64,000 nucleotides of DNA from Opitutaceae bacterium EW11 (lineage in GTDB: Bacteria; Verrucomicrobiota; Verrucomicrobiia; Opitutales; Opitutaceae), in the NCBI GenBank assembly GCA_003054665.1, contig QAYY01000003.1, forward strand, positions 62,001 through 126,000, read 5' to 3'. Each line of letters starts with the position of its first letter. The stretch's first letter is position 1. The notes under the pieces are model-generated. The model saw only the letters and a list, made by a program, of their open reading frames with translations, did not search any database and had not been told where the DNA came from. Position numbers and translations under genes: made by a program. This document shows positions 8,726 to 45,526 of the stretch, piece after piece.

Positions 8726-8944
8726 GGTCAAAATGGGTTGGAAGACGAAGAAGGGAGGCCGCGCGTGCTCAGCGAGCGCGGCGGCGAAACTCCGCCACCG
8801 GATGCCGACGTCGCATGGCGGAGACCGTGCGCGGCGCTTCCGGCTCGCGGGAGCGTCTGGCTCGCCCGGAACCAGCCGGGCGGCCAGACGCACCACGCGT
8901 TGGGCGGAGAGAGTTGCTATTCGAAACCGGACGAGCGGCTGGAG

Positions 8945-20732: not shown

Positions 20733-23081
20733 TCACCGCTGCGGTGCGGGCGGAAGAACAGTGAGCTCGGCGGCCCCGCTCCAGCCGGTGTCGTCGACGT
20801 CGTGCAGCGCGGTGAAACGGAAGAACCGAGCTTCGACCGGAGCGAAGGTCACTTCCTGAAGCATGGGATTGTTGCGGATGTTGCCGAACACGCCCGAAGC
20901 GACCTGCGTGGTCCAATGCTCCCCGTCGGTGCTGGTTTCGAACCGGTACCGATCGACAACGCCGATGAAGACCCAGTCCTGCCGGGGGAGGTAGGCGAAA
21001 CCGCCGATTTTGCGGACGCTGCCCATGTCGACGGTGAGGCTCGGACGTGCCGTTTCGCCGGCGGGCGCGCGGACTTGCCAGAGCGACCGTGCATCGGCGT
21101 CGATCGCGTTTTCGGCAGGAAGCTCGGAGGCGCTCAGGTGCTCACCGGCGCCGATCACCTTCCACCCGGTGGGCGCAAAACCGACGATGGTTTTCGACGC
21201 GACGAGACCCAGCTGTCCGTTGGGTGTGAGAACCGCTGCCTGCACGGTGCCACCCGAGGGAAGCTCGATGGGCGATCGATACACCGGCGACTGCGCGGTC
21301 GGTTCGGAGCCGTCGGTCGTGTAGACGATGGGCAGCTTCCGGGTGTGGGCCAGCGACACCGAACCGTCGCGGCTGCGCTCGGAAATCCCGGGTTCCTTCG
21401 GCAGTGACTGCTTGAATACGCCCACTTCGGCGAGCGTCGGCTCGAGCCGCGAGTCGGTGATGCGCACGCGCAACCGATCGGTGGTCGCGGGCGTGGCGAG
21501 GCGCAGCAGGCGTTTGTGCCCGACCGTCGTCTGCTCATCCAGCAGCTCGGGGGCGGTCCAACCTGAACCGTTCCAAGTCTCGAGGACGAACGACTCGATG
21601 CGCTGGCTCCGGTGGTCGACCGCCTCTTGGAGCGAAACGACGTCGAAAGCGATCGGGGTGGGGAAGGTCAGCGTGACGATGCCGCCACGCGCTCCCGGTG
21701 CCGCCTCCCACCACGAGTCGAGATTTCCGTCGTGCGCGAACGAGGCGTCGCGGCGCGCGGCGGAAGAATCGGCCGTGAACGTCGCGCCGTCGGCGAGATC
21801 CTTCGCGAAGGTGTCGCGAACGACTTCCGCCATCTTGCGGAGCGAGGCGAGTTCGTTGTCCGGAATCAGGCCGCGGGTGTCAGGGGCAACATTGAGCAGC
21901 ATGTTCCCATTCCGGCCCACCGAACGGTAATAGTAATCGACGAGCTCGGCCGGGCTCTTCGCGCGTTTCTCGGCGGACCAGAACCAGCCGTTGAGGATCG
22001 AGGTGTTTACCTCGGCGGGATACCACCACAGATGGGATCCAGGCGTGAGTTTGGCGCGGCTCCCGAGATCGCCGGCCTGCATGTCGGGCCAGGTGAACTT
22101 GTCGGGCGATTGCGAGAGGGGAATGACGCTCCACTCGGTCATTCGGCCGACGCCGCCTTCGTTGCCGACCCAGCGCACATCGGGCCCCTTGACCGAAATC
22201 ACCGCGTTCGGCTGCAGCCGATGAATCAGGTCGTACCAGGCCTTGTAGTCGTAACTCTGTTGGACGCTCGGATCCGGGTTGGCGCCATCGAACCACGCAA
22301 CGGAGATCGGCCCGTATTCGGTGAGCAACTCGTAGAGCTGATTCAGGAAATACCGGTTGTAGTCATCGACCTCATACGTGTGGCTGCCGAAGCCTGGCGT
22401 GGGCGAGCGGCCGCGACTGGGATCCTTCTGGAAGCTCGTGGGGTCGGTGGGGATGGCCGAACGCACCTTGGGACTTTTGTTGCCGTAGAGACCCGCGGGA
22501 TTCGTCGGGTTGGTGCGCAGTTGATACAGATCGGCCGGGGAAAGATAGATGCCGAGCTGGATGCCGTGCCGGCGGCAGGCGTCCGCGACTGCGCGAACGA
22601 GGTTGCCCTTCCCCTCGAGCCAGGGGCTCGAGGCGACCGAATGCTGTGTGTAGCGGGAGGGCCAGAGGCACAGCCCGTCGTGGTGTTTCGCGACGAGGAT
22701 GAGCAGGGTGCCGCCCGCGTCTTTCACCGCGCGAACCCATTGATCTGCGTCGAGCGACGTCGGGTTGAAGAGGGCGGGCGACTCGCGGCCGTCGCCCCAC
22801 TCGACTCCGCGAAACGTATTGGGTCCGAAGTGCAGGAAGAACGTGCGCTCGAGGCGCATCCAGGCGGTCTGGTTGGGCCGCGGCAGGACTTTCCCGGCCT
22901 TTTCGGCGATCGTCGCATCCGAATCCCCTGGCGCGATGACTTGCAGGGTTGCGTAGTCGATGAGCGGGCGAGACGGCTCCGTTGACGCGGCGAAAGTTCG
23001 CTCGTTGGAGGAGACCATCAAGGAGACGAACAGGGCTGCTAGCCGCACCGACCGGGCGGTGAGTGGCGAAATGAAATTCAT
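20733..23081 (-). CDS. Multi-domain GH29 alpha-L-fucosidase with F5/8 type C modules
   Basis: A 782-residue secreted enzyme and the promoter-proximal gene of the minus-strand cluster. The start at 23081 opens the signal peptide 'MNFISPLTARSVRLAALFVS'; Met codons at 23087 and 23108 are alternatives. The GH29 barrel spans ~65-410 ('FFLHFGPNTFRGVEWGDG', 'LILVAKHHDGLCLWPS', nucleophile Asp265 in 'VAWFDGANPD', 'NGNMLLNVAPDTRG'). Two F5/8 type C (discoidin-like) modules follow at ~430-570 and ~640-775. Between them is a short chitobiase C-terminal-like segment ('PIVYTTDGSEPT'). This architecture is typical of linkage-restricted (alpha-1,3/1,4) fucosidases, though specificity cannot be read directly. 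Confidence 0.88.
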   Translation of the reverse strand: MNFISPLTARSVRLAALFVSLMVSSNERTFAASTEPSRPLIDYATLQVIAPGDSDATIAEKAGKVLPRPNQTAWMRLERTFFLHFGPNTFRGVEWGDGRESPALFNPTSLDADQWVRAVKDAGGTLLILVAKHHDGLCLWPSRYTQHSVASSPWLEGKGNLVRAVADACRRHGIQLGIYLSPADLYQLRTNPTNPAGLYGNKSPKVRSAIPTDPTSFQKDPSRGRSPTPGFGSHTYEVDDYNRYFLNQLYELLTEYGPISVAWFDGANPDPSVQQSYDYKAWYDLIHRLQPNAVISVKGPDVRWVGNEGGVGRMTEWSVIPLSQSPDKFTWPDMQAGDLGSRAKLTPGSHLWWYPAEVNTSILNGWFWSAEKRAKSPAELVDYYYRSVGRNGNMLLNVAPDTRGLIPDNELASLRKMAEVVRDTFAKDLADGATFTADSSAARRDASFAHDGNLDSWWEAAPGARGGIVTLTFPTPIAFDVVSLQEAVDHRSQRIESFVLETWNGSGWTAPELLDEQTTVGHKRLLRLATPATTDRLRVRITDSRLEPTLAEVGVFKQSLPKEPGISERSRDGSVSLAHTRKLPIVYTTDGSEPTAQSPVYRSPIELPSGGTVQAAVLTPNGQLGLVASKTIVGFAPTGWKVIGAGEHLSASELPAENAIDADARSLWQVRAPAGETARPSLTVDMGSVRKIGGFAYLPRQDWVFIGVVDRYRFETSTDGEHWTTQVASGVFGNIRNNPMLQEVTFAPVEARFFRFTALHDVDDTGWSGAAELTVLPPAPQR

Positions 23082-23271
23082 CGTCATAGGCTGTCGAAGC
23101 ACGGGCATCGTGAGTTTTGCTGGGACGTCGCGCCGGAGAGTGTTCTGCAAAGGAGCAGGGGATAATGCACGGCGCGTCATGAGGTGCATGTCGCCTGCGC
23201 GGCGGCCCTTTGCCTTGGTATTGCGGGCGGCGGGCGGACTGCCGAGACGGCGACGAAGCGCCATTCAAACT

Positions 23272-23560: not shown

Positions 23561-25186
23561 ATGAAGATCATCGCGTTGTTTGGATCCATTTTCGCGGTGA
23601 TCGCGACTGCCACTATGGCGTCGGGTGCAGAGGCCGGGACAGCTCCCGTCCTGAAAACGCGCGTTATATCAGCCGACCTCGAGCGGGAGGCGGGGGCGAT
23701 GAGTCGAATGTATAACTTATGTGTGGGCGCGGGTCGTGCTAATGAAGGCCTGCGCGCCGACTGGCAGCGCCAGCTGAGGCGAGTCCGTGAAGAGTGCGGG
23801 TTCCGCTACATCCGGTTTCACGGGCTGTTTTGCGACGACATGGGTGTGTATTTCGAGAACAAGGGGCGCCCGGTCTATAACTGGCAGTATATCGACGAGC
23901 TCTTCGACTTTCTGCAGAGCATCGGGATGAAGCCGTTCGTGGAGCTCGGCTTCATGCCTTCGGGCCTGGCGAGCGGGTCTCAGACGATTTTCTGGTACCG
24001 CGGGAATGTCACGCCGCCCCGAGATTATGCGAAGTGGGAGGCCTTCATTGCGGCTTTTGTGCAGCACTGCACCGAACGCTACGGGCGCGACGAGGTTCGG
24101 TCGTGGTATTTCGAAGTGTGGAACGAGCCGAACCTCGACGGCTTCTGGATGGGGAATCCCGCGAAGAAGCCCTACGAGGAATGGTCGGTCGGTGCGCGCG
24201 CCGAGTATTTCAAACTCTATGCCAGCACCGCGCGGGCGGTGAAGTCCGTCGACCAGGCCTACAAGGTGGGCGGTCCCGCCACGGCGGGCGAGGGGTGGAT
24301 CGACGAGACGCTCGCCTACTGCGCGGAGACCAAAGCTCCGATCGACTTCGTCAGCACGCACAGCTACGCGACGATGAGCGGCTACCTGGACGAGAACGGC
24401 AATGCCGGGACGGTCTTCTCGCCCGACCGAGAGTCCATTACCGCGGGCGTGAAGAAGGTCCGCGCGAAGATCGACCAGTCGCCGTTTTCGCATTTGCCGC
24501 TGCACTATACGGAGTGGAGCGCCTCGTATACGCCATCGGATCCGATCCACGACAACTACGTAAGCGCTGCCTTCATTCTGGATAAAATCCGTCACATTGG
24601 CGCCGCGGCGGATTCGATGTCGTATTGGACTTTCACCGACATCTTCGAGGAAGCCGGGCCGCGCGCGACCCCGTTCCACGGCGGTTTCGGACTGCTGAAC
24701 TACGAGGATCTCGCGAAGCCTTCCTTTTTTGCCTATCAATTCCTGAATCGGTTGGGAGGCACGCAGCTCGCGTGCAGCGATGCGGATTCGTTCGTCTGCC
24801 GCGATGGCGCTGCGGTTCAGGCGCTTTTCTGGGACTTCACCATCACGCACCCCGGGCCCTCGGTGATCAACCAGGTGTATTACGTGCAGGATCACCCGGC
24901 GAAGTCGCTGCCGGCGACGGAGCTGAAGCTCTCGGGTTTGAAGCCCGGCCGGTATGAACTCGCAGCCCGCCAGGTCGGCTATCGCGTGAACGACGTACAG
25001 TCGGCGTGGCGCGATCTGGGGTCGCCGCCACAGCTCACGCGAACGCAGGTTGCCGCGCTGAGCCAGGCTTCGTCCGGTGCGCCGGTGCTCGTCGAATCGG
25101 TCGAGATCGGCGCCGACGGACGGTTCACGAGGCAATTCGCCATGCGAGAAAACGACGTGTGGCTCGTCGAGCTGCGGCCGCTTTGA
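23561..25186 (+). CDS. GH39 beta-xylosidase-like enzyme, copy 1
   Basis: A 541-residue secreted enzyme with signal peptide 'MKIIALFGSIFAVIATATMA' and cleavage near 'ASGAEA'. The barrel shows 'CGFRYIRFHGLFCDDMGVY' (~79-97), acid/base Glu189 in 'FEVWNEPNLDGFW' and nucleophile Glu318 in 'LHYTEWSASY', matching GH39 (beta-xylosidase, alpha-L-iduronidase and related retaining enzymes). A C-terminal beta domain covers ~410-541. It is followed after 156 nt by a TBDR, with no recognised promoter motif between, so co-transcription is likely. A paralogue ~10 kb away (33629-35257) is nearly identical from residue ~54 to ~289. Beta-xylosidase is the default family activity; the substrate is not certain. 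Confidence 0.88.
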   Translation: MKIIALFGSIFAVIATATMASGAEAGTAPVLKTRVISADLEREAGAMSRMYNLCVGAGRANEGLRADWQRQLRRVREECGFRYIRFHGLFCDDMGVYFENKGRPVYNWQYIDELFDFLQSIGMKPFVELGFMPSGLASGSQTIFWYRGNVTPPRDYAKWEAFIAAFVQHCTERYGRDEVRSWYFEVWNEPNLDGFWMGNPAKKPYEEWSVGARAEYFKLYASTARAVKSVDQAYKVGGPATAGEGWIDETLAYCAETKAPIDFVSTHSYATMSGYLDENGNAGTVFSPDRESITAGVKKVRAKIDQSPFSHLPLHYTEWSASYTPSDPIHDNYVSAAFILDKIRHIGAAADSMSYWTFTDIFEEAGPRATPFHGGFGLLNYEDLAKPSFFAYQFLNRLGGTQLACSDADSFVCRDGAAVQALFWDFTITHPGPSVINQVYYVQDHPAKSLPATELKLSGLKPGRYELAARQVGYRVNDVQSAWRDLGSPPQLTRTQVAALSQASSGAPVLVESVEIGADGRFTRQFAMRENDVWLVELRPL

Positions 25187-25342
25187 GCGGCGCCCGCCCC
25201 CTTTCCCCCCCCCCTCCGATCTTCGAGGAAACCGCAGCGCCTCTGCACGCGGTTTTCGCTCCTGCGCGAGGCAGTCCTGGGCTGCGTCTGCGACGGCCCG
25301 TCAATTTCCGGCAACGGAAAACAAACCGGAAGCAATGCAAAC

Positions 25343-28300
25343 ATGAATAAAATAGCTACCCCCAAAGTGCTGGCTCTCTTGACCGCACTCTCACTGGGAG
25401 CCGGGGCCGCCCGGGCGCAATCCGCGCCGCGGGAGGACACGGCCTCTCAGGACAAGACTAAACCCGAGGAGGAGATGATCGTACTCTCTCCCTTCCTCGT
25501 TTCCGCAGAAGAAGACGCGGATACTTATCGAGCCACCTCCACGCTTGCGGGATCACGCGTCCGCACCGACTTAAGGGACGTGGCTTCGTCACTCAGTGTC
25601 GTCACCTCACAATTCCTTCAGGACACCGGCGCCACCAACAACCAGTCGCTTCTGACATACACGACCAACACAGAGGTCGGTGGCCTCTACGGCAACATGG
25701 CGGGCGTCGGCAGCACCTACATCAATGGCGCGGGCGAAAGCGCCACAAACTTGCTGCGGCCAGCCACCAACACCCGCGTGCGTGGCCTCGATTCGGCGGA
25801 CAACACCCGCGACTACTTCCAGACGGACATCCCGTGGGACTCGTTCAACGTTGGCCGTGTCGACCTCCAGCGCGGGCCCAACTCGATTCTCTTCGGCATC
25901 GGCAGTCCAGCCGGCATCATCAACACGAGCGTCAATACCGCCGGCTACAAGACTGAGGGAAAGGTGGAAAACCGGATCGGCAGTTTCGGGAGTATCCGCA
26001 ACTCCGTTGATTACAACCAGGTCCTGATCCCTGATCAGCTCTCCGTGCGCGTCGCCGGCATCTACGACGATACGAAATATCGCCAGAAACCGGCCTACAA
26101 TTTGGACCGCCGCGTGTTCGGCGCCATCCGGTGGGACCCGAAACTTTTCAAGAACGGTCGGACGACCATCCGCGCCAACTACGAGATCGGGGATGTGACT
26201 GCGAATCGGCCCCGGACGCTTCCGCCGGTCGACAGACTCACGCCGTACTTCGATCCGAACGGATTCAACAAGCAGCTTCAAGACGCCACCTTCACGACCC
26301 AAATGGGTATTCAGCCATTTTCGTCCAGCTCGCTTTATCCCGGTGAGAAGGCGAATTTCTGGTTCGGTGGATCGATGGGCGTCAGCAGCGGCGCCGCTCC
26401 CGTATTTACCTACGACAACTCTTCGACGCCTACTTCAGTCCATGCAGGTGGCACTACCACCTATTTCGCCATCGACAAGGAAGGCAAACGCTCGGGTTCC
26501 GTGGGCGGTTTCCCCTATTCACAGCCAGTGGGCATCGCCGGCTACGGCACTTGGGCCTATAATTTGGACCAGTACGGTGCGGCGCACGGTGCGACCGCCG
26601 AGCAGCTTGCGTCGGTGGCGGGGGCCGTTGAAGGATTCTTCAAGGATAAGTCGATCACCGACACGGGCATCTACGACTTCTATAACAACCTCCTGGATGG
26701 CAACACCAAGGGGGAATGGCAGAAGTGGAAGGCCTATAACCTGTCTCTAGAGCAGACCTTCTTGGATGATCGCCTCGGTTTCCAGCTGGTGTACGACCGG
26801 CAGCACTACCGCGACGGGAGCGAGTCGAACCTCGGCTACAACACCTATCTCAGTATCGACATCAACGAATACACCTATCAGTACCCGGGGGCCTACAGCG
26901 CGGCCAACGGCTACAGTGGGGAATATGCCGCGACGAAGAATCCGAATGCCGGGCGCGTCTACACGGGTGGCACCCCCGGCGGCTCGAGCCGGAGCACCGA
27001 GCGTGAAAACCTGCGCGCCACCGCCTTTGGTGAGCTTCGCGCCAAGGACTTCTTCGGCGACTCTCTGCTGGCCAAGATCATCGGTCACCACACAGTCACG
27101 GGCGTCTATTCGGAAGAAAAGTACGACCTCGAGGACCGCAATTGGACCCGCTATGCGCTGACGAACGAGTGGAACGACTTGGTCGGCAAAGGCCCTAAGT
27201 TCGAACAAGGCGGCAACGGTGGCCTTGCAAGCGGTGCTTTGACCATCGACACCCTCACTTACCTTACGGGTTCGGTCGCGGGTTACGCCAGTGCGTCCCA
27301 GCTGGACATTCCCCGGATCATGGGCAGCCAGTCGCCCACGGGGTCGTACTCCGCCAAGTATTACGACTCTCACTGGAAGTGGTCGCTCGATCCGTCCGCT
27401 CCGGATTACGTGGATCCGAGTGCGCCGTGGACCAATCCCACCAAGCGGCCGGACAACACGGACCCAGACACCCAGTCGAGCAATCCCGCCAATTACGTGG
27501 GCTGGAGAGACACGACCGTTACGGTCCTGAACGCCGACAAAGGCGACATCAACAGTCTCTACACGTCCGGCAGCAAAAATCAGCGTAAGACCACCTCTCA
27601 AGGGTTCACGTGGCAGGCCTATCTCTGGGAAGACACGCTGGTCGGCACCTTTGGCTGGCGCCGCGACGAACAGAAGATACGCGCGGCCGCTGCCCCCTCC
27701 AAGGTCGACGCCGATGGCAATGATACCGGAGTTGTCGACATGAACTACGGGCTCGATCCGCTCGATCCGGAAACCGGAGTTTCCACCGGCGAGAGCAAAA
27801 GCTGGGGTCTCGTGCTCCACACGCCGCGCAAGATCCGTGAGCAGCTGCCGTGGGGGAGTGACATCAGCCTTGGTTTCAGTGACGGCAATAACTCGCGTGT
27901 CGAAAACCGCTATGGCTTCGATGCCCAGAAATTGCCAAACTCGAAAGGCAGCACGAAGGACTATAGCATCGTCGTCAGCACGCTGAACGACCGGCTCACG
28001 TTCAGGGCCACCTATTACGATACCAAGGTGAAAGATGCCAACATCTCAAGTGTCACCACCCAAACCTCCACGCTCGGTGCCAACACCAGGGACCTCGTCG
28101 AAAGCGAAATGTATGGCACTACCTCCGCCCTGATTCTTCTGGCGGGCAATGCCGGCGACATGGCAGGTACAGGCCAGGAATGGTACTGGAACTGGGCGAC
28201 CATCGCCCATAATTGGGATAGCGCCTATAATGATCCGAGCACGGATCTTTATAATAACGATCCCGAGACCATCAAACAAAAGGCGGCCGCTGCGTCGTGG

Positions 28301-29134
28301 CTCAGTCAGTTGAAGCCGCAGTCCTGGTTCGACGCGTTTGGCTACAGAGTCAACGTAGCGCAGGCCGCGGCCGGTGACTATAAACACGCCATCAACAACG
28401 GCGTCTGGCAGCCAGTAAACTATGTAAATAATAACCTCGGCTCCAACAACGGCGGCAAGGTCAACGGCCAGTGGCCGACCGGCACCGTGGATTACGAGTC
28501 GAAAGGCTGGGAATTCGAAATCACCGGCCAGCCGACGAAGAACTGGAACGTCTCGATCAACGCCTCCAAGCAAACGGCCCAACAGACTGCGCTGGGTGCC
28601 GGCTTGGTGGCCACCATCGAAGCGCTGTACGCGAAATATCAGACTCCTGCCGGCGACCTCAGGCGCTGGTGGGGCGGCGACGAGCCCATTCGTAACGTGT
28701 TCAATAGAAACGTCTATGCCGCGTATCTCTTCCAGAAGGAGACCAACGGCAAGCTGGTGCCGGAAATGGCACCCTGGCGCTTCAACCTCGTGACGAACTA
28801 CAGGTTCGATCACGGTTTGCTCAAGGGATTCAACGTCGGCGGTGGCTACCGCTGGGAGGACGGAAAAATCCTCGGCTATGCCCTCAACGAGGAGCAGGAC
28901 AACCTCGACGTGAGCAAACCCTACTGGAGCAAGGCGCAGGACTCGATCGACCTATGGGCCGGCTACGAGCGGAAAATCAGCAGCAAACTTCGCTGGCGCA
29001 TCCAACTCAATCTGCGGAACGTCGGTGAAAACCCGCACGTGACGCCGATCAGCGTCGAACCCGATGGGTCTTACGCCCAATATCGTATCCAGGAAGGCAT
29101 GACCTGGACGCTCACCAACACGTTCTCGTTCTGA
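25343..29134 (+). CDS. Large TonB-dependent receptor, copy 1
   Basis: A 1263-residue outer-membrane protein with signal peptide 'MNKIATPKVLALLTALSLGA' and cleavage after 'ARAQ' (~26). A mature N-terminal segment 'IVLSPFLVSAEEDADTYRAT' leads into 'STLAGSRVRTDLRDVASSLS', the signature I associate with Opitutales TBDRs. The plug (~55-230) includes 'LQRGPNSILFGIGSPAGIIN'. The rest is a long beta-barrel rich in Tyr, Trp, Asn and Asp and ends in Phe ('TLTNTFSF'), the outer-membrane insertion signal. It is well above the usual 700-1000 residues, implying long extracellular loops. No SusD-like lipoprotein accompanies it. Uptake of the oligosaccharide released by its GH39 partner is inferred from context. 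A terminator follows the stop. Confidence 0.9.
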   Translation: MNKIATPKVLALLTALSLGAGAARAQSAPREDTASQDKTKPEEEMIVLSPFLVSAEEDADTYRATSTLAGSRVRTDLRDVASSLSVVTSQFLQDTGATNNQSLLTYTTNTEVGGLYGNMAGVGSTYINGAGESATNLLRPATNTRVRGLDSADNTRDYFQTDIPWDSFNVGRVDLQRGPNSILFGIGSPAGIINTSVNTAGYKTEGKVENRIGSFGSIRNSVDYNQVLIPDQLSVRVAGIYDDTKYRQKPAYNLDRRVFGAIRWDPKLFKNGRTTIRANYEIGDVTANRPRTLPPVDRLTPYFDPNGFNKQLQDATFTTQMGIQPFSSSSLYPGEKANFWFGGSMGVSSGAAPVFTYDNSSTPTSVHAGGTTTYFAIDKEGKRSGSVGGFPYSQPVGIAGYGTWAYNLDQYGAAHGATAEQLASVAGAVEGFFKDKSITDTGIYDFYNNLLDGNTKGEWQKWKAYNLSLEQTFLDDRLGFQLVYDRQHYRDGSESNLGYNTYLSIDINEYTYQYPGAYSAANGYSGEYAATKNPNAGRVYTGGTPGGSSRSTERENLRATAFGELRAKDFFGDSLLAKIIGHHTVTGVYSEEKYDLEDRNWTRYALTNEWNDLVGKGPKFEQGGNGGLASGALTIDTLTYLTGSVAGYASASQLDIPRIMGSQSPTGSYSAKYYDSHWKWSLDPSAPDYVDPSAPWTNPTKRPDNTDPDTQSSNPANYVGWRDTTVTVLNADKGDINSLYTSGSKNQRKTTSQGFTWQAYLWEDTLVGTFGWRRDEQKIRAAAAPSKVDADGNDTGVVDMNYGLDPLDPETGVSTGESKSWGLVLHTPRKIREQLPWGSDISLGFSDGNNSRVENRYGFDAQKLPNSKGSTKDYSIVVSTLNDRLTFRATYYDTKVKDANISSVTTQTSTLGANTRDLVESEMYGTTSALILLAGNAGDMAGTGQEWYWNWATIAHNWDSAYNDPSTDLYNNDPETIKQKAAAASWLSQLKPQSWFDAFGYRVNVAQAAAGDYKHAINNGVWQPVNYVNNNLGSNNGGKVNGQWPTGTVDYESKGWEFEITGQPTKNWNVSINASKQTAQQTALGAGLVATIEALYAKYQTPAGDLRRWWGGDEPIRNVFNRNVYAAYLFQKETNGKLVPEMAPWRFNLVTNYRFDHGLLKGFNVGGGYRWEDGKILGYALNEEQDNLDVSKPYWSKAQDSIDLWAGYERKISSKLRWRIQLNLRNVGENPHVTPISVEPDGSYAQYRIQEGMTWTLTNTFSF

Positions 29135-29199
29135 TCTTCTCGTCATCTGAATCTTCCCGTGCGGGACGGACACCGGCGGGAAGTCCGGATTAGTTTCTC

Positions 29200-29237
29200 G
29201 GGGCGCCGGTCTTGATGCGACCGGCGCCCCTCTTTTT
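29200..29237 (+). terminator. Intrinsic terminator after TBDR copy 1
   Basis: GGGGCGCCGGTC (29200-29211) pairs perfectly with GACCGGCGCCCC (29219-29230) around a 7-nt loop and is followed by TCTTTTT. It lies between convergent TBDR and response-regulator genes. Confidence 0.93.
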
Positions 29238-29276
29238 GGGAAGCGCCTGCAAGGCGATCGGAAGGGGCGCGCGCCG

Positions 29277-29960
29277 TTACTTCAGGTTCGTATAAACGGC
29301 CACTGCCTGGGCCCTCGAGTGCACGTGGAGTTTCTCGTAGATGCGGCGGATGTAGGTGTCGACCGTCGGGGTGCCGATACCGAGGGTATCCGCGATCTCT
29401 TTGTACAGATAACCCTGGGCCAGCAACGCGAGGACATCGTTTTCTCGCTTGGAGAGTTCGGCGGAGGCTTTCAGCCCGGGTCGGCGCTGCTGGACCAGTT
29501 GGATGACCTTGCGGGCGATGCCGCTGCTCATCGGCGAGCCGCCGCCGTGCACCTCGCGCAACGCGCCGATCACCGCTCTGCGCGATGCGCTTTTGACGAG
29601 ATAGCCGGTCGCTCCGGCGGTCAGCGCGTCGAAGATGTGGTGGGAGTCCGCGTAGACAGTCAGCATCACGAATTGCGTGTCCGGCAGGAGGGGCTTGAGT
29701 TGCCGCACGCACTCGATGCCGCTCAGCCCGGGAAGATTGATGTCGACCACCACGACGTGCGGCTTTTTGTGCGCGATCTCCGGAAGCGCCGTTTCGACGT
29801 CGGAAAAGGCGCCGGCGAACGTGAAGCCCTCGGCTTGTTGTATCCACTGTGTGAGTATGTCGCGCACCCGGTCGTCATCCTCGACGATCATCGTGACGAT
29901 CGTGGGACGCTGGACCTCGCGGGCGCGCTGGCTTTCGGCTTGCTCGGATGTGTCTGGCAT
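29277..29960 (-). CDS. NarL/FixJ-type response regulator, pair 1
   Basis: A 227-residue DNA-binding regulator. The receiver domain (~22-145) has the acidic pair 'VEDDD', phospho-acceptor Asp73 in 'VVVDINLPGLSG', the Thr in 'MLTVY' and Lys in 'YLVKSA'. The LuxR-type helix-turn-helix is C-terminal (~165-225: 'LSKRENDVLALLAQGYLYKE', '[17 protein letters not shown]'). Its ATG shares one base with the stop of the kinase (TAATG at 29962-29958), so the two are translationally coupled and form a two-component system. It is a close paralogue of the regulator at 47499-48170. Its targets are not shown; nearby GH39-TBDR cassettes are the obvious candidates. Confidence 0.93.
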   Translation of the reverse strand: MPDTSEQAESQRAREVQRPTIVTMIVEDDDRVRDILTQWIQQAEGFTFAGAFSDVETALPEIAHKKPHVVVVDINLPGLSGIECVRQLKPLLPDTQFVMLTVYADSHHIFDALTAGATGYLVKSASRRAVIGALREVHGGGSPMSSGIARKVIQLVQQRRPGLKASAELSKRENDVLALLAQGYLYKEIADTLGIGTPTVDTYIRRIYEKLHVHSRAQAVAVYTNLK

Positions 29961-32900
29961 TAGGGATGGTGGGTGGGGCGGTGCGGGCGGCTGTCCGGCG
30001 ACGGAGCCGGCCGCGCAGATGGCACCGCGACGGCCAGCGTCACACGCGTTCCGCGTCCCTTCCCGCTTTGAATCTCACAGCGACCGCCGATGCGCTCAAG
30101 ACGCTTGCACATGTTGCGGAGACCGTTGGCCGAACGCACACGACTGGGCTGTGTGGTGTCCGCCGGGTCGAAGCCGCAGCCGTCGTCCGTCACGGTGATC
30201 ACGACGGAATCTGACTTCACCTCCACCGAAACGCGCACCTCGGTGGCGGCGGCGTGTTTGACTGCATTGTTGAGCGACTCTTTGAAGGCGAGGAAAAGGC
30301 TGTGCCGTGTCTCGGCGGTCACGGCGCAAGCGGGCACGATGACGGGCAGGTTCAGCCGGCAGCGGAGTCCGGCGGCCGAGAGGAACTCGTGGGCGAAGTT
30401 GCCCATGTAGTCGACCAGGCTGTCGAGTTCGTCGTGGCGAGGGTCGACGGCCCAGACAATCTCGTCGAGCGCCTGCATCACTTCGTGCGCGGTGTGATAG
30501 ATTCCCGACAGCACCGCCGACGCACGGGCGGGTTCGCCGAGTTCGCTTCGGGCGGGCTGGCTCAGCATCGCGATGCGGGAGAGGCTGGCGCCGACGTCGT
30601 CGTGGATATCCTGCGCGATGCGGGCGCGCTCGCGCTCGAGTTCGTGCTGGCGCTCCATTTGTTCGATACGCCGCTGCATGCGGCGATGGGTGAAGTGGCG
30701 CACGGCCAGCGCCACGGCGGCTGCCGCCAGCAGCGCGCAGAGACCGACGAACCACCATGTCTGCCAGATGAAAGGTGCGACGGTGAAGGCCAGGGAGGCG
30801 CCCTCCAGGTTCCACTGCCCGTCGTTGTTGCAGGCAATGACATGGAATCGATAGTCGCCCGCCGGAAGCCGGCTGTAGTAGGCGGTGCGCTTCGCGCCTG
30901 CATCCACCCAGGTGTCGTCGATTCCGTCGAGCCGATACCTGAAGAGGACCTTGCTGGGGGCTACATAGCTCAGGCCGCCGAAGCGAAACTCCAGACGCTG
31001 ATGGCTCGGAACGAGACTCTTCAGCAGAGGATTCTCAGCGGGCGCGACGGGCTTGCCGTCGACCAGCAGCGACTCGAGCACGACTGGCGGCGGGAGACGA
31101 TTGACCTGGATGCGGCTCGGATCGACGAGAAGCACCCCTTTGCTGCTCGCGAAGCATAGGCGGCCGTCCTTCATCTTGCAGCCGGCGCCCTGCAGACCGC
31201 CCGCAAACTCGATGGTGGGCAAACCGTCGTTCTGATCGTATATCTGCCCGGAAATCGTGCGCACGCTGCCGTCCGCGCAGCAGTTCAGTTCGGCCTTTTC
31301 CACGCGCTGGAGACCGTGATGGGTGCTCAGCCAGAGATAGCCGAAATCGTCGTTGAGAATGTAGCAGATGGCGTCATCGGCCAGTCCCTGCGCGATACCG
31401 AGGGTCGTGAAACGCCGGTCCTTGAGTCGCACGAGCCCCCGGTCCGCGGTGCCTATCCAGAGCGTGCCATCCGTATCCAGCCACAGACACTGCACCGCGT
31501 TGCTCGCCAAGCCGTCTTCGCGCCGGAACGTCTCGACCTTCCCGTCGGAGATGTGGGCGATGCCTCCCAGGGCCAAACCGCACCAGATGCCGCCGTGTCC
31601 GTCGAGTGCGATGGCGCACACGCCAGCGTCCGTATCGTTCGACTTGAGCAGCCATTTCGCCCTGTCGTCGGTCAGCTGCCGCAGGCCGTCTCGATTGCCC
31701 ACGAGCATTTCTCCCGCCGCCTCACCCGCGACCAGGGCGAACACGTGGCCGGAAGCCTCGTCGACGGTCGGAGGGCGCACGATGCGGCCGTTTTCGAGGC
31801 GGTAGGGGCTGCCCCACCAGAAATTGCCCACCCACGGAACGCCGGACGGGCTCTCCGTCACCGCGGATATGTACGGGTTGAAGAGGCCCTCGGCGTCCCC
31901 GTAACGTTTCCAGCTGTCGTTGGAATACCGATACAAGCCGGCGCCGTCCGTGCCGATCCACAGCGCGCCGTCTGCGGAAGGCGCTACGGCGTTGGCCGGG
32001 CAGCCTTGCCACTGGTCCGGGGAGACGATCACGGAGAAGGCGGAAGGGTGGATCGACACCATGCCCGCGCTGCCGGCGCCGACCCAAAGGTTGCCTTCGC
32101 GGTCTTCGAGGACGAAACGGATTCGATCCTGCGGCAGGCCGTTGCCGCGGCCGAAATGAACCGCGCGGCGGCTGCCACCGAACACCAGATACAGTCCGGA
32201 CTGGGACGTCCCCACGGCCAGCGTGCCGTCGCGCAGTTCGATGCAGCAGGAGAGCGATTGGTTCGGCCACGGGATGCGCCCGCGATTCTCGATCCAGCGG
32301 CCGTCTTTCCATTTGCGGACCAGTTCTTCGCAGACGATCCAGGCTCCGCCGTCGCGTGCGGCTGCAACGCCGAGCACATAGTTTCTGTCGCGGACCGGAC
32401 CGAGATCGATTGGCTGAAGCCCTCCGTCCACCAGGTGTGCGGCCTTGCCGTTTTCCGCGGACCATATGCTGCCGCTGGAGCTTCGCGACCAGGCCATGAC
32501 AGCGGGAAACTCCGGATCGACGAGCGAACGCAGGTGAAGTCCGCTGCCGTCGAGCGCGTCGAACCCCCCGTGCTGACGCATCGCCCAGAGCCGGCCTTTC
32601 TCGTCGCTGCCGAGCGCAAGCATGCGTTCTTCCTTTTTTCCCGACGGGAGCACGACCGTCTCGAAATGTCCGTCCCGGTAACGTGAGATGGCTCCCGTTT
32701 CGTGCCCGATCCAAAGTGTGCCCTCTGCGTCTTCGAACAGGCACTCGATGCGCTGATCGTGGAGGCCGGGAGTCGTCGTGTTGTAGACCTGGAAGCGCTC
32801 GCCGTTGAACCTCGCCAGCCCGCTTGACGTGCCGAACCAAAGATAACCGTCACGCGTTTGGATTGCGGACGTGACGATATTCTGGGGGAGCCCGTCTTCG

Positions 32901-33016
32901 GTCTGCCAGAGCCGAACCGAATAGCCGTCTGCCAGAGAGGTCACGGCGGCCTCGCAGATCGGCAAAGGAAGCATCAGCACGATGCATGCGGCAAGAAACC
33001 TGAAGGGAAGCGGCAT
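29960..33016 (-). CDS. Sensor histidine kinase with periplasmic beta-propeller and Y_Y_Y domain, pair 1
   Basis: A 1018-residue membrane kinase. After a signal peptide (1-23), residues ~30-690 contain many two-component-regulator propeller repeats of the form 'DGTLWIGTADRGLVRLKD' or 'REGNLWVGAGSAGMVSI'. A Y_Y_Y domain follows (~690-750, 'VLFRYRLDGIDDTWVDAG'). The single membrane helix is ~751-772 ('WWFVGLCALLAAAAVALAV'). The cytoplasmic part holds the HisKA_3 box with His805 in 'IAQDIHDDVGASLSRI' and a HATPase domain ('ESLNNAVKHAA', 'DDGCGFDP'). This is the sensor half of Bacteroides hybrid systems, here split from its regulator. It is divergent from GH39 copy 2. Propeller kinases of this kind sense oligosaccharides; the ligand is unknown. 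Confidence 0.92.
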   Translation of the reverse strand: MPLPFRFLAACIVLMLPLPICEAAVTSLADGYSVRLWQTEDGLPQNIVTSAIQTRDGYLWFGTSSGLARFNGERFQVYNTTTPGLHDQRIECLFEDAEGTLWIGHETGAISRYRDGHFETVVLPSGKKEERMLALGSDEKGRLWAMRQHGGFDALDGSGLHLRSLVDPEFPAVMAWSRSSSGSIWSAENGKAAHLVDGGLQPIDLGPVRDRNYVLGVAAARDGGAWIVCEELVRKWKDGRWIENRGRIPWPNQSLSCCIELRDGTLAVGTSQSGLYLVFGGSRRAVHFGRGNGLPQDRIRFVLEDREGNLWVGAGSAGMVSIHPSAFSVIVSPDQWQGCPANAVAPSADGALWIGTDGAGLYRYSNDSWKRYGDAEGLFNPYISAVTESPSGVPWVGNFWWGSPYRLENGRIVRPPTVDEASGHVFALVAGEAAGEMLVGNRDGLRQLTDDRAKWLLKSNDTDAGVCAIALDGHGGIWCGLALGGIAHISDGKVETFRREDGLASNAVQCLWLDTDGTLWIGTADRGLVRLKDRRFTTLGIAQGLADDAICYILNDDFGYLWLSTHHGLQRVEKAELNCCADGSVRTISGQIYDQNDGLPTIEFAGGLQGAGCKMKDGRLCFASSKGVLLVDPSRIQVNRLPPPVVLESLLVDGKPVAPAENPLLKSLVPSHQRLEFRFGGLSYVAPSKVLFRYRLDGIDDTWVDAGAKRTAYYSRLPAGDYRFHVIACNNDGQWNLEGASLAFTVAPFIWQTWWFVGLCALLAAAAVALAVRHFTHRRMQRRIEQMERQHELERERARIAQDIHDDVGASLSRIAMLSQPARSELGEPARASAVLSGIYHTAHEVMQALDEIVWAVDPRHDELDSLVDYMGNFAHEFLSAAGLRCRLNLPVIVPACAVTAETRHSLFLAFKESLNNAVKHAAATEVRVSVEVKSDSVVITVTDDGCGFDPADTTQPSRVRSANGLRNMCKRLERIGGRCEIQSGKGRGTRVTLAVAVPSARPAPSPDSRPHRPTHHP

Positions 33017-33379
33017 AGGCTCCGGAAGGGGGGAATCCGGGGGGCCGATAGATCGGCCACAGCGTTTGAAAATGGCTCCGGCAGAGGCAGTGGCAAGGGC
33101 GGAACTCAGGGGCGTATCGGAGGATAGCCGCGACGATGGGTCGCCTCTGAGAGCATGGGAACGGAGACCCCCCGTGGAAGTGCGCGAGCGCTCCGAGGGG
33201 CAGGGGTCGCGTCAAGCGCGCGACCGCGTGGAACGTGGGACCGGACCGGCGTTTCCGGGGTACGAGACCGTAGCGCATACGGCATGACGGGCTCAGAAGA
33301 CGGCAACAACGCGCAGACCGGGGAGGTGAGCGGCTGGATTCGGCCGATGTCACGCAGTTTGCGCCCACGGCGTATCCCA

Positions 33380-33420
33380 CGTTTTGGGGACAAGCGTTCA
33401 CGGCCCTTAGGTGGTAATCT
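33380..33420 (+). promoter_or_regulatory. Promoter-like motif, second GH39 copy
   Basis: CGTTTTGGGGACAAGCG (33380-33396) is followed by TAATCT (33415-33420) exactly 22 nt after its GACA. It points toward GH39 copy 2 (ATG 233 nt downstream) in the 612-bp divergent gap 33017-33628. That gap has no gene, but also a short inverted repeat GCACGAACGTGC at 33577-33588. Confidence 0.5.
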
Positions 33421-33628
33421 GCAACTGTCAGCTCCGATCAACCGGGCTGAGCATCCCCTAATCCCCTCAGTTTTACCCATTTTTTCGGCACGATCCTCGT
33501 GTCGCGGTTCTATGTTTCGCCTCGGAGTTTTTCTCGAAGTTCTCGGGCCGGCAAGATGCGGCCCGGATCGTGGCATGCACGAACGTGCAGCCCGCTACGG
33601 GGAAAACTGAGCACCGGCTCCCTTCAGC

Positions 33629-35257
33629 ATGCGTCGTATTCCAGGCTTCTCGTTCGCTCTACTGTTCGCATTTTTCGGCGCCCACCTTGGCGCGCAGGAA
33701 CCGAGCTCGCCGCAGTCGGGCTCGGTCCGCGTCATTGCGGCGGACATGAAAAAGGCCGACGGCCCGACGAACCGCATGCCGGAGTTCTGCGTCGGCGCCG
33801 GTCGGGCCAACGAAGGCTTGAGAGCCGATTGGCAGCGGCAGCTGCGTCGGGCGCGGACCGAGTGCGGATTCCGCTACATCCGGTTTCACGGACTGTTTTG
33901 TGACGACATGGGTGTGTATTTCGAGAACAAGGGACGCCCGGTCTATAACTGGCAGTATATCGACGAGCTCTTCGACTTTTTGCACAGCATCGGGATGAAG
34001 CCGTTCGTGGAGCTGGGCTTCATGCCTTCGGGTCTGGCGAGCGGGTCTCAGACGATTTTCTGGTATCGCGGGAATGTCACGCCGCCCAAAGACTACGCGA
34101 AGTGGGAGGCGTTCATTGCGGCATTTGTGCAGCACTGCACCGAGCGCTACGGGCGCGACGAGGTTCGGTCGTGGTATTTCGAAGTGTGGAACGAGCCGAA
34201 TCTCGACGGCTTCTGGATGGGGAATCCCGCGAAGAAGCCCTACGAGGAATGGTCGGTCGGTGCGCGCGCCGAATATTTCAAACTCTACGCCAGCACCGCG
34301 CGGGCGGTGAAGTCCGTCGATCAGGCCTACAAAGTGGGCGGTCCCGCCACGGCGGGCGAGGGGTGGATCGACGAGACGCTCGCCTACTGTGCGGAGACGA
34401 AAGCTCCGATCGATTTCATCAGCACGCACAGCTACGCGACGATGAGCGGCTACCTGGACGAGAACGGCAATGCCGGCACCGTCTTCTCGCCCGACCCCGA
34501 CGCGATCACCTCCGGCGTCAGGAACGTGCGCGCGAAGATCGACCGCTCGGTGTTTCCCAAGCTCGAACTGCATTATACGGAGTGGAGCGCCTCCTACACG
34601 CCGTCCGATCCCATTCACGACAGCTATCACAGCGCAGCCTTCATCCTGGACAAGATGCGCAACATCGGCCGCTCGGCGGATTCGATGTCGTATTGGACTT
34701 TCACCGACATCTTCGAGGAAGCCGGGCCGCGCGCGACCCCGTTCCACGGCGGTTTCGGACTTTTCAACTACCAGGATCTGCCGAAGCCCTCGTTCTTCGC
34801 CTACAAGTTCCTGCATGAGCTCGGCGACACCCGGCTCGCCTGCGCCGATCCGGCGGCGTTTGTCTGCCGCGGCGAGCGCGGTGCCGTGCAGGCCCTGTTC
34901 TGGGATTTCACGATCACCCATCCGGGAAAATCGGAGATCAATCAGGTGTTTTACGCCGCCGACCAGCCCGCGAAAGCGAAGGGCAAGGCGGAACTCAGCC
35001 TCACGGGTTTGACCGCGGGCACCTATCGGTTGCTCGCGACGAAAGTGGGCTATCGGGCGAACGACGTGCAGTCGGCGTGGCGCGATCTTGGATCGCCTTC
35101 GCAGCTGACGCGCGCCCAGGTCGAGACCCTGCGTAATTCCGCAGCGGGCGTACCCGAGATCGATCAGACCGTCCGCGTGGGAGCGGACGGTCGTCTGACG
35201 CATCCGTTCGCGATGCGCGAGAACGACGTGTGGTTCGTCGAGCTCCGTCCGCTTTGA
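33629..35257 (+). CDS. GH39 beta-xylosidase-like enzyme, copy 2
   Basis: A 542-residue secreted enzyme, paralogue of 23561-25186. The signal peptide 'MRRIPGFSFALLFAFFGAHL' (cleavage near 'GAQ') is unrelated to that of copy 1. Catalytic residues are the same: acid/base Glu189 in 'VWNEPNL' and nucleophile Glu318 in 'HYTEWSA'. From residue 54 to ~289 only about five residues differ from copy 1 and the DNA is nearly identical, whereas the signal region and the C-terminal ~250 residues differ at roughly a quarter to a third of positions. A second block of more than 80 bases (34676-34759) is identical to copy 1. This mosaic suggests gene conversion. It is followed after ~180 nt by TBDR copy 2. Confidence 0.88.
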   Translation: MRRIPGFSFALLFAFFGAHLGAQEPSSPQSGSVRVIAADMKKADGPTNRMPEFCVGAGRANEGLRADWQRQLRRARTECGFRYIRFHGLFCDDMGVYFENKGRPVYNWQYIDELFDFLHSIGMKPFVELGFMPSGLASGSQTIFWYRGNVTPPKDYAKWEAFIAAFVQHCTERYGRDEVRSWYFEVWNEPNLDGFWMGNPAKKPYEEWSVGARAEYFKLYASTARAVKSVDQAYKVGGPATAGEGWIDETLAYCAETKAPIDFISTHSYATMSGYLDENGNAGTVFSPDPDAITSGVRNVRAKIDRSVFPKLELHYTEWSASYTPSDPIHDSYHSAAFILDKMRNIGRSADSMSYWTFTDIFEEAGPRATPFHGGFGLFNYQDLPKPSFFAYKFLHELGDTRLACADPAAFVCRGERGAVQALFWDFTITHPGKSEINQVFYAADQPAKAKGKAELSLTGLTAGTYRLLATKVGYRANDVQSAWRDLGSPSQLTRAQVETLRNSAAGVPEIDQTVRVGADGRLTHPFAMRENDVWFVELRPL

Positions 35258-35410: not shown

Positions 35411-35438
35411 AATGTACCCAACCATAATAACCCCAAAC

Positions 35439-38400
35439 ATGTACAGGAAACGTACCCGCTTGGTGCTGGCGACGCTCTCAGCACTAACTGTGGCCTCCGG
35501 CTCGCTCAGAGCCCAGGCCGCTCCCACCGACACCGGTCGGCCTGCCTCGTCGGAAGACGAGTCTGTGATCACCCTGGATCCGTTCACGGTCACCACCGAT
35601 CAAGAAGGCTACAAGGCCGACGACACGCTCGCGGGCGGCCGCGTCCGTACCAGCCTGAAGGATACGCCGGCTTCGCTGTCGGTGGTCACGAAGAAGTTCA
35701 TGGAGGATTTGGGAATCACCAACTCCACGGACATGCTGGTCTACACGGCGAGCACCGAAGTGGCGGGGCTCTTCGGCAACTACTCCGGCGTCGGCAACCG
35801 CGGCACTGGCGTCGACTTTGGCGGTGCGGTGGAAAACGCCCGGTTGGTCAATCCGGCCGGCGTGAATCGCGCGCGCGGTCTGACCGCGATGGATCAAACC
35901 CGGAATTACCTGCCGAGCGATATTCCTTGGGACGGTTTCAACATCAGCCGCGTCGATATTTCGCGCGGCCCGAACTCGTTCCTCTTCGGCACCGGCAGCC
36001 CGTCGGGTATCTCCAACGTTTCGACCAACGAGGCGACCTACAAAGACGGAGGAAACGTGGAGGTCCGGTACGGAAGTTTCGGAACCACCCGCGAGTCCCT
36101 GGACTACAACAAAGTTCTCCTCAAGAACGAACTGGCCTTCCGGCTCGACTTGATCAACGGCAACTCGAAGTACAAGCAGGACCCGGCGTTCAGCGATTCC
36201 AAGCGTGTCTATGCAGCCCTGCGTTACGACCCGAGTTTCCTGAAGACGGACTCCGCGCGCACGAAGATCCAGGCCAGCTACGAGCACGGCCAAGTGCGGT
36301 CCAACAATCCGCGCATCCTTCCTCCGGTTGACTATATCACCGGCTATTTGAGGGATCCCCGCGCCAGCAGCACGGGCATCGACCCGTGGATGTTCACGCA
36401 GAACCTCACCGAGGTGGGCGCCGATCCGAACTACAGCCTCTGGGCGAATGCCGGATCGATCGGCAACATGTACCTGTGGGGTGGCACTCCGCAGTTCTAT
36501 TGGGATGGAGTCACCGGCACGTTGCTCGGGCAGGGTGCGTCGAACTACTCCCGCGGACCTGGTTCCACGCCGAATACCTGGCCCGTTCATAGCGTTGGCT
36601 TCAATGGATACGCCCGGGCGGCGAATCGCATCGCCCTCCAGCAAGGCATCAGCGCGGCCAACGCCCCCTATCCGGGTGCCTACGCCAACACGGTGACCTA
36701 CCTCGATCAGACCCTCAGCGACACCGGCGTCTTCGACTTCTACAACAAGCTCATCGACGGCGACAACAAGCGCGAGTGGCAGGATTGGGACGCCTATAAC
36801 CTGACCATCACCCAGAGTCTGTTCCGCGACCGCCTGACCATCCAAGCGGTGGCGGACCACCAGGAATACAGCAGCGGCATGAAGGGGGTGTTCGGCAATC
36901 GTACACCGACGATCATGCTGGACCTCGACAAGTATCTGCTGACGGGGAATCCCACCTGGCTGGGTAATCCTACCCCGAATCCGAATGTCGGCCGGCCCTT
37001 GCTCTTCGCCGATCAGGGCAAATACGAGGACAACAAGATCGTTCGCGACAACTATCAGGTCACGGCCGCCTATGTCCTGGACGTCCAGCGGGATTTCAAC
37101 GCAGACGGCCTCCTCGGCCGGATTCTAGGATCCCACAGCTTCACCGGTCTCTGGTCGAAATTCGACCGCTCCAGCGAGAATCGGAATTTCAAGCTGGACG
37201 GCGTGGATTACGAATACCTGCGCGTGACGGGCTACAATCTCAACGCGCGCCGACGGGACAACGGCTTCAACTGGCTCGCCTACATGGGACCCTCGCTCCT
37301 TGGGACCACGGGTTCGAGCGCCAACCTGGAGAACCTGCTGCATCCCCTCAACCTGCCGAGCGTGGCCAACTTCAATATCTACTCGAACGAGTGGATTGCC
37401 GATCCCTCGGTCAATCGCACCGATCCGTGGACCTATACGGGCAAGGACGGTACTACGACCACCACGACCCAGGCGGACAATCCCGCCAACTATCGCGGCT
37501 ATGTTCAGTACCCGTTCCCCATCATCAGCGGCGCGTCGAATCCCTGGGTTCTCGCGAACAGCGGCCGGAAGGCAACGCAGTCCATCGAGTCCAAGGCGAT
37601 CATGTATCAGGGCCATTTCTGGGATGATACGATTGTCCCGTCGCTGGGATACCGCTCCGACACGACCAAGCAGAGTGGTGCCGACGCGAATACATCGGGC
37701 GATATCGTCAATCTCGACTACCACATCACCGATCCGGGTGTGAAGATGACGACGAACTCGTTCAGCTACGGTGTCGCCGTTCACCTGCCGAAGGCGGTCA
37801 AGAGCCACCTTCCTGCCGGCACGGACGTGACGTTGAACTACTTCCATGGCGAGAACGAGACTCCTCGGGTGCGCTATGGCATGGACGGCAGCATGCTGCC
37901 GAACGAATCCGGAAAGACGGACGACGTTTCGGTCCAAGTTGATGCATTGGACGGCCGCTTCACGGTGCGCCTCACCAAGTTCAAGACGATCAACGCGAAT
38001 TCCTCCGCCTACGTCGGCGTGCCGCTCGCCACCTGGCTGGTCCGCGGACTGCCGGCGATCACGCTTCAGTATGCTGGTTGGGCTTTCGCCGAGCGTCAGC
38101 TCGGGTTCGATCCGGTGACCATGGCGGTCCCGGGAGCGCCGGCCAGTTGGGACACGTGGAGGACGGAAGCCAATCCGTATCGCTGGCGGCCTCATTCCTG
38201 GATGGATACGAATCCGGAGAACGCGGCCGCGTTCGAGCAGGCGATGAAGACGGACTTCGTCAACTTCTTCCCGCAGTCCTACTGGGATACCTGGGGCTAC
38301 AATGTCGACGTCGAGGCCATCAAGCGCGGCGACTGGGTGCATGTCGTCCGCGGCTGGGATGATCCCTGGAATATCAGCAAGATGGGCGGCCGCGACACCA

Positions 38401-39083
38401 TCAACGGAGAGTTCCCGACCCTCGAGCAGAACCTCGAGTCCAAGGGTTACGAGCTGGAGCTCACCTTCCGCCCCGTGCGGAACTGGGACATCACGCTCAA
38501 CGGTTCCAAGGTCGACGCCACGCAGACTGGCTTCGGCGAGACCGCGACCCGTTTCATCGAGGGCATGAAGCACGTCTTCGTCGACACCCCGGTTGGCTAC
38601 GGCAACGTCTGGGGCGGTTTCCAAACGGCAAAGCAGATGTTCAACGGTGACGTCTGGGCGAAATACCTCACGACGAACGCGTTGGTCGGCAGCGCACAGC
38701 CCGAACAGCGGAAATACCGGTTCAACGTGATCTCGAACTACCGGTTCGATCACGGATCGCTCAAGGGCCTGAACGTCGGTGCTGCGTACCGTTGGGAAGA
38801 CAAAGCCATCCTGGGCTACGGCATCTACAATGCCGACATCACCGGCTGGATCCCCGACGTGAATGCTCCCATCTACGGGCCGACCGAACAGCATGTCGAC
38901 CTGTGGATCGGGTATGAGCATAAGCTCACCAAGAAGATCAACTGGAGAGCTCAGCTGAACCTGCGCAATGCGTTCGAGAAGGACCATCTGGTCACCATCG
39001 CGGTTCAACCCGACGGCACGACCGCCCAATCGCGCATCGCGAGCGGGACGACGTATGACCTGAGCATGAAGTTCATGTTCTAA
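35439..39083 (+). CDS. Large TonB-dependent receptor, copy 2
   Basis: A 1214-residue outer-membrane receptor. The ATG at 35439 directly opens a signal peptide ('MYRKRTRLVLATLSALTVAS', cleavage near 'LRAQA'); an ATG at 35412 would add nine residues and sits against a hairpin. The mature start 'ITLDPFTVTTDQEGYKADDT' is followed by 'LAGGRVRTSLKDTPASLSVV', the same family signature as TBDR copy 1. The plug includes 'ISRGPNSFLFGTGSPSGISN'. The barrel ends in Phe ('TYDLSMKFMF'). Similarity to copy 1 is clear but much lower than between the GH39 partners, so the two receptors may take up different glycans. No SusD gene is adjacent. Confidence 0.9.
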   Translation: MYRKRTRLVLATLSALTVASGSLRAQAAPTDTGRPASSEDESVITLDPFTVTTDQEGYKADDTLAGGRVRTSLKDTPASLSVVTKKFMEDLGITNSTDMLVYTASTEVAGLFGNYSGVGNRGTGVDFGGAVENARLVNPAGVNRARGLTAMDQTRNYLPSDIPWDGFNISRVDISRGPNSFLFGTGSPSGISNVSTNEATYKDGGNVEVRYGSFGTTRESLDYNKVLLKNELAFRLDLINGNSKYKQDPAFSDSKRVYAALRYDPSFLKTDSARTKIQASYEHGQVRSNNPRILPPVDYITGYLRDPRASSTGIDPWMFTQNLTEVGADPNYSLWANAGSIGNMYLWGGTPQFYWDGVTGTLLGQGASNYSRGPGSTPNTWPVHSVGFNGYARAANRIALQQGISAANAPYPGAYANTVTYLDQTLSDTGVFDFYNKLIDGDNKREWQDWDAYNLTITQSLFRDRLTIQAVADHQEYSSGMKGVFGNRTPTIMLDLDKYLLTGNPTWLGNPTPNPNVGRPLLFADQGKYEDNKIVRDNYQVTAAYVLDVQRDFNADGLLGRILGSHSFTGLWSKFDRSSENRNFKLDGVDYEYLRVTGYNLNARRRDNGFNWLAYMGPSLLGTTGSSANLENLLHPLNLPSVANFNIYSNEWIADPSVNRTDPWTYTGKDGTTTTTTQADNPANYRGYVQYPFPIISGASNPWVLANSGRKATQSIESKAIMYQGHFWDDTIVPSLGYRSDTTKQSGADANTSGDIVNLDYHITDPGVKMTTNSFSYGVAVHLPKAVKSHLPAGTDVTLNYFHGENETPRVRYGMDGSMLPNESGKTDDVSVQVDALDGRFTVRLTKFKTINANSSAYVGVPLATWLVRGLPAITLQYAGWAFAERQLGFDPVTMAVPGAPASWDTWRTEANPYRWRPHSWMDTNPENAAAFEQAMKTDFVNFFPQSYWDTWGYNVDVEAIKRGDWVHVVRGWDDPWNISKMGGRDTINGEFPTLEQNLESKGYELELTFRPVRNWDITLNGSKVDATQTGFGETATRFIEGMKHVFVDTPVGYGNVWGGFQTAKQMFNGDVWAKYLTTNALVGSAQPEQRKYRFNVISNYRFDHGSLKGLNVGAAYRWEDKAILGYGIYNADITGWIPDVNAPIYGPTEQHVDLWIGYEHKLTKKINWRAQLNLRNAFEKDHLVTIAVQPDGTTAQSRIASGTTYDLSMKFMF

Positions 39084-45460: not shown

Positions 45461-45494
45461 AAGGCGGAGAAGGCGGGGAGACGCTTGCTCGCTC

Positions 45495-45511
45495 CTTTTT
45501 AATATCCTATT
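45495..45511. promoter_or_regulatory. AT-rich divergent promoter core between DUF5916 and araC-like genes
   Basis: CTTTTTAATATCCTATT stands out as the only AT-rich stretch in the 66-bp divergent intergenic region. It contains a plausible plus-strand -10 box (TATCCT). Promoter function is inferred from composition and position. Confidence 0.4.
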
Positions 45512-45526
45512 CCCGGTGTTCCGACC

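Follow-up and report, generated by a model that had tools for sequence, protein, structure and literature searches.

How do two genes that lie side by side in one genome come to be almost the same along one stretch and clearly different on either side of it? The window analysed here, 64,000 nucleotides from one contig of Opitutaceae bacterium EW11, raises this question with two genes of glycoside hydrolase family GH39, A and B (Table 1). An earlier note on this DNA had proposed that a recent gene conversion kept the catalytic face of the two enzymes identical while their neighbouring receptors diverged; each part of that proposal can be set against the divergence of the pair, segment by segment, and against homologues from related genomes.

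The two GH39 genes and their surroundings

Both genes are found where the earlier note had placed them, and each matches Pfam Glyco_hydro_39 (PF01229, 472 positions), A at profile positions 3-469 and B at 4-471. The best PDB matches of B are the beta-xylosidases 4m29 (E 5e-142) and 4ekj (E 9e-142), over residues 32-542, and the sequences of A and B mark them as probable beta-xylosidases. The catalytic segments are conserved as in these solved enzymes; the N-terminal ends of A and B are unlike each other. No close GH39 gene other than A and B was found in the genome, the third match being 32% identical; the two stand in direct orientation, ~10 kb apart, with unique genes between them. Among the genomes compared, the source genome is the sole member of its genus. 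One of the two GH39 copies of genome G115 (G115a, locus L146) is 79.5% identical to gene B and serves below as a reference.

Table 1. Positions in the window of the two GH39 genes, their neighbours and the putative tracts
Feature	Positions	Strand	Basis
GH39 gene A, 541 aa	23561..25186	+	ORF; PF01229 E 3.6e-110
GH39 gene B, 542 aa	33629..35257	+	ORF; PF01229 E 1e-106
TonB-dependent receptor A (Plug domain)	25343..29134	+	ORF; Pfam
TonB-dependent receptor B (Plug domain)	35412..39083	+	ORF; Pfam
Response regulator (receiver + LuxR-type HTH)	29277..29960	-	Pfam
Sensor histidine kinase (Reg_prop, Y_Y_Y, HisKA_3, HATPase_c)	29960..33016	-	Pfam
Putative conversion tract 1 in A (codons 78-282 + next two bases)	23792..24408	+	dS 0.19 (0.12-0.29)
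Putative conversion tract 1 in B	33860..34476	+	Same dS and identical-block evidence as in A
Putative tract 2 in A, 88 bp identical to B	24606..24693	+	Longest identical block
Putative tract 2 in B	34674..34761	+	Longest identical block; silent codon counts
Apparently unconverted segment of A between tracts, with presumed nucleophile E318	24409..24605	+	dS 1.13, codons 283-346

The receptors downstream of A and B are strongly diverged, as had been claimed (35.1% identical over 1289 aligned positions), and each has relatives of its own elsewhere in the family. Searches in which two candidates were scored per genome returned relatives of receptor A at 50-57% from three other genera of the family (G020, G063, G051, G003, G126, G143, G225 and G019) and relatives of receptor B at 52-65% from five other genera (G143, G014, G083, G029, G210 and G115); a third receptor in the source genome is 46% identical to receptor A and 39% to receptor B. 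G115a itself has a neighbouring receptor that is closer to receptor B (49.5% identity) than to receptor A (36.3%), and a B-type receptor adjoins GH39 in both G115 and G029. G020 has a GH39 gene, an A-type receptor and a pair of response regulator and histidine kinase genes inside 13 kb, and G029 has the same regulator pair; near GH39, relatives of the response regulator occur at 69% in G029 and 61% in G020, those of the histidine kinase at 57.7% and 56.5%. Because receptors A and B have separate relatives in other genera, the cassettes appear to be old, and the two receptor lineages would be older than the genus, unless acquired sideways. Divergence of that age, with relatives in other genera, gives no indication of selection having worked together with the conversion.

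The G115 relative (74%) of the alpha-L-fucosidase-family gene beside A (20733-23264) lies close to the B-type GH39 gene (L146), so that gene order and GH39 ancestry disagree. The surrounding genes at 12681-15395, 17494-19953, 40183-42843, 6131-8896, 42866-45961 and 48567-51827 encode three GH2 enzymes and one GH3 enzyme, one DUF5916/CBM9 protein and another histidine kinase of the Reg_prop/Y_Y_Y kind, and the locus, judged by its predicted gene content, is a large glycan-use cluster. A 956-codon minus-strand ORF at 52552-55422 has no Pfam match at E 1e-5 and may not be a gene.

Synonymous divergence along the pair

Estimated by segment with bootstrap intervals (values capped at 3), the synonymous divergence (dS) between A and B is saturated in the N-terminal segment (codons 30-77), 0.19 (95% CI 0.12-0.29) in the core (codons 78-282), 1.13 (0.64-3.0, upper limit capped) in the mid segment (codons 283-346), 0 in codons 347-377, a span that holds most of the 88-bp identical block, and 1.43 (0.98-3.0) in the C-terminal segment (codons 378-541); mid and C-terminal segments together give 1.34 (0.95-3.0, capped), against 0.19 in tract 1. 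Windows of 30 codons moved along the A-B codon alignment gave ~1.1 at alignment codons 61-90, 0.06-0.43 across 91-300, 0.69-0.97 at 301-360 and 0.16 at 361-390; the remaining windows are at 1.0-2.0 or saturated, except the last, of 7 codons (0.41). At the nucleotide level, the identity of the mid and C-terminal segments is 0.68-0.77. The uniform synonymous divergence that the earlier note had named as the contrary outcome was not found: dS is strongly uneven, which favours gene conversion, or an equivalent homologous replacement, over simple duplication.

The five residue differences between residues 54 and 289 are as previously stated, and so are the differing ends (25 residues are aligned in the first 30 columns, of which 6 are identical; C-terminal dS as above) and the identical block, which at 88 bp is slightly longer than had been reported. 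Near-identical DNA is likewise present, but it starts at about codon 78 and not at codon 54. Residues 54-72 are invariant in 17 aligned proteins, so that protein identity there is uninformative on conversion; as that alignment indicates, the identity reflects family-wide conservation and not conversion of the DNA. Tract edges are thus misjudged when protein identity alone is used.

The last identical block of tract 1 lies at 24351-24408 in A, and the tract ends at 24408 in A and 34476 in B. Codons 78-282 differ at 25 nucleotides, 21 of them at third codon positions, and the silent differences of tract 1 (21/189 codons) are evenly spread (P 0.935), with no sign of multiple events within it. In tract 2 (codons 348-376), A and B differ silently at 0 of 25 codons, against a median of 9/25 over 190 pairs; at the tract 1 rate, the count of 0/26 silent differences has P 0.047, only a hint that tract 2 may be younger than tract 1.

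These patterns are unlikely to be due to chance. The best-segment log-likelihood ratio (LLR) of the A-B scan is 29.6, compared with a maximum of 11.4 in 500 permutations, and ranks first of the 190 pairs among 20 sequences, the second pair reaching 16.8. This set was drawn up without three of the 23 foreign matches (G074, G024 and G234, identity <=59%) and without G107 (gene in two pieces), G083 (partial) and a G014 fragment. The silent difference of A and B is the lowest of the 190 pairs in the core (22/186 codons) and only the 79th lowest in mid plus C (70/157). Right of codon 282 there is a run of 27 silent matches, a length that 0 of 10,000 permutations reached; counted more strictly, over the whole gene, the 26 consecutive silent matches of codons 347-377 have P 0.0069. 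The best single scan segment, codons 78-383, covers both tracts plus the gap, and a second scan to its right found nothing (P 0.675) because tract 2 had already been taken in. The two-tract division therefore rests on segment dS, not on the scan, and the dS intervals of the gap (codons 283-346) and tract 1 do not overlap.

Two side observations concern the mid segment. Over codons 283-346 of A (24407-24598), the mean distance to homologues is 0.311, compared with 0.237 for B and 0.243 for G115a. Separately, two genes from different genera, G115a and L149 of G206, agree at 30 of the 31 silent codons in alignment columns 319-359 and at 191/327 elsewhere (LLR 11.8 vs. a 95th percentile of 10.2 over the 190 pairs), a weak hint of a separate exchange there.

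A probable homologous replacement, its direction and its age

Trees were built by segment. The core tree joins A and B (UFBoot 100) and rejects both B with G115a and A with G115a (AU 0.0004 and 0.009). The pooled-flank tree joins B with G115a (UFBoot 97), yet A and B as sisters are not rejected (AU p 0.18); the same holds for the N-terminal tree (44 codons; UFBoot 97, AU 0.09) and the C-terminal tree (165 codons; UFBoot 96, AU 0.25). In the mid tree (67 codons) the three arrangements fall within 1.2 log units, A with B being slightly best, and the tract 2 tree (28 codons) favours A with B by 5.2 log units, the other arrangements not being rejected. Whole-gene GH39 trees in this group could misplace copy A.

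We consider it highly probable that A-type and B-type sequence underwent homologous replacement, of which a donor copy in another genome is a special case. A and B would be old GH39 paralogues, each paired with a different TonB-dependent receptor from lineages long apart; once the genes had gained most of their divergence, ~617 bp of one gene would have been replaced by the sequence of the other through homologous recombination, and the 88-bp stretch would have been homogenised too, in the same patchy event or in a later one. The conversion was presumably non-reciprocal and within the genome, since the unique genes between the direct copies have been kept, and a simple crossover would have deleted them. 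As recombination requires local identity, the location of both tracts in more conserved parts of the gene may be sufficient neutral reason for their positions.

Several other histories could produce a similar middle and different ends. Uniformly old duplicates under strong synonymous constraint in mid-gene, whether from codon bias or RNA structure, would fit a middle that is more conserved family-wide at the protein level; yet 18 homologues, from 17 other genomes, stand at a core dS of 0.76-2.14 from A or B, and in tract 2 the next-lowest of the 190 pairs has 4 silent differences where A and B have 0. Because homologues show no synonymous conservation in the tract, the similarity belongs to the A-B pair, and we reject synonymous constraint on the core dS of the homologues, leaving it a negligible probability. 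A collapsed or chimeric repeat in the assembly is every bit as improbable: the 6.40-Mb genome is a draft of 45 contigs, but both genes lie inside one 700-kb contig, completeness is 99.99% and contamination 0.32, and collapse would yield identity, whereas tract 1 has 25 differences whose concentration at third positions makes an artefact unlikely. Alternatively, A and B could have arisen by a younger duplication, with other GH39 sequence later taking over the ends of one copy. This too would leave the middle similar, and the fucosidase gene near the B-type GH39 of G115 suggests that A's position could be ancestral; we nevertheless regard this history as decidedly unlikely, since it calls for three or more replacements in A (at the N-terminus, over codons 283-346 and at the C-terminus) plus a different receptor, where two tracts are simpler, and the upstream regions of A and B have no blastn similarity at E 0.01.

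The strongest of the alternatives concerns only the source of the donor sequence. If the middle of A came with incoming DNA, its donor being a B-type gene in a different strain or species and not the B of the same genome, the pattern would be the same, and the tract dS of 0.19 could predate the transfer. No other of the 20 sequences comes nearly as close to A's tract as B does (the lowest of 190 pairs), and B lies ~10 kb away in the same genome; we hold an outside donor to be possible but rather unlikely.

Within the preferred reading, homologous replacement, the direction of tract 1 can be judged from G115a. The distance of A to G115a exceeds that of B by 0.130 (N), 0.109 (mid) and 0.067 (C) per site, with CIs all >0, whereas in the core the difference is -0.007 (CI -0.021 to 0.008). 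Relative to other homologues, the core ratios to G115a are 0.62-0.65 for both A and B; outside the tracts they are 0.73-0.74 for B and 0.91-1.10 for A. Both cores are as G115a-like as B outside the tracts, or closer, which favours transfer from B into A; with B as putative donor and A as putative recipient, this is the better-supported direction for tract 1. Neither copy of tract 2 resembles G115a in this way (ratio 1.25 in A, 1.09 in B). Compared piecewise, G107 and G083 are closer to B than to A in the mid and C pieces and about equally close in the core, which is consistent with transfer from B to A and does not test direction; the same comparison for the GH39 fragment of G014, on the same contig as its B-type receptor, was uninformative on direction. 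The GH39 gene of G107 (L163) is in two pieces in different frames, corresponding to B residues 32-336 and 358-542.

A variant in which the copies swap sequence repeatedly and in both directions, the main tract going from B to A and the 88-bp tract later from A to B, seems to us unlikely; were it true, two receptor-specific uptake cassettes would share one enzyme core while the receptors and the enzyme ends stay separate.

The event was not recent, contrary to the original proposal: over the stretch in which A and B differ by a dS of 0.19, B and G115a differ by 0.85. From this simple dS ratio, we infer that its age is roughly a fifth to a quarter of the B-G115a divergence.

The active site and comparison with known systems

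E189 (in WNEP) and E318 (in TEWS), which we take to be the acid/base and the nucleophile of GH39, respectively, are invariant in 17 aligned proteins. In a predicted model of B (mean pLDDT 78), strands at residues 54-59, 83-87, 124-129, 183-187, 235-242, 263-270, 313-320 and 352-355 can be read as the eight strands of the barrel. Tract 1 spans predicted strands 2-6 together with E189, and tract 2 spans predicted strand 8 and its loop (359-373, low confidence); strand 1, to the left of tract 1, and strand 7 with E318, in the segment 283-346, lie outside both. With the presumed nucleophile unconverted and strand 1 left of the tract, the pattern of tracts does not match the active site; neither a catalytic face kept identical by conversion nor the adaptive reading is supported.

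Replicates of the mosaic were sought in two ways. No second GH39 copy at E 1e-20 occurred at any of 80 genome contig loci, the best 80 of a longer list, with flanks of up to 10 kb, several being shorter at contig ends. A family search of 252 genomes, in which at most 5 candidates were scored per foreign genome, gave 23 matching genomes, and only G000 and G115 had two GH39 matches at E <= 1e-120. Neither search found a second tandem pair on which the comparison could be repeated, and the two GH39 copies of G115 are not mosaic (core dS 0.72, mid plus C 0.58). In literature searches, publications joining gene conversion, glycoside hydrolase and polysaccharide utilization dealt, by their titles, with eukaryotes, which is no proof of absence from print.

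The process itself is known. Gene conversion between bacterial paralogues is described for tufA/tufB of Salmonella, a gene of 1185 nt (PMC5485169), and A and B would resemble that case in non-reciprocal, tract-like transfer, in having two copies on one chromosome and in gene length. The tuf copies are, however, near-identical along the gene, whereas A and B are so only in the copied middle and fall to 0.68-0.77 in the mid and C-terminal segments. PMC6053082 treats concerted evolution that is still under way over whole genes and leaves partial cases, in which it has ceased, to later study. A and B share with its cases a similarity between paralogues that exceeds that between orthologues, but only inside the tract; unlike them, A and B would represent a partial conversion, no longer ongoing, in one genome. 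The pair would be an unusually clear new instance of partial ectopic conversion, one between diverged paralogues in a glycan-use locus and with a relative date.
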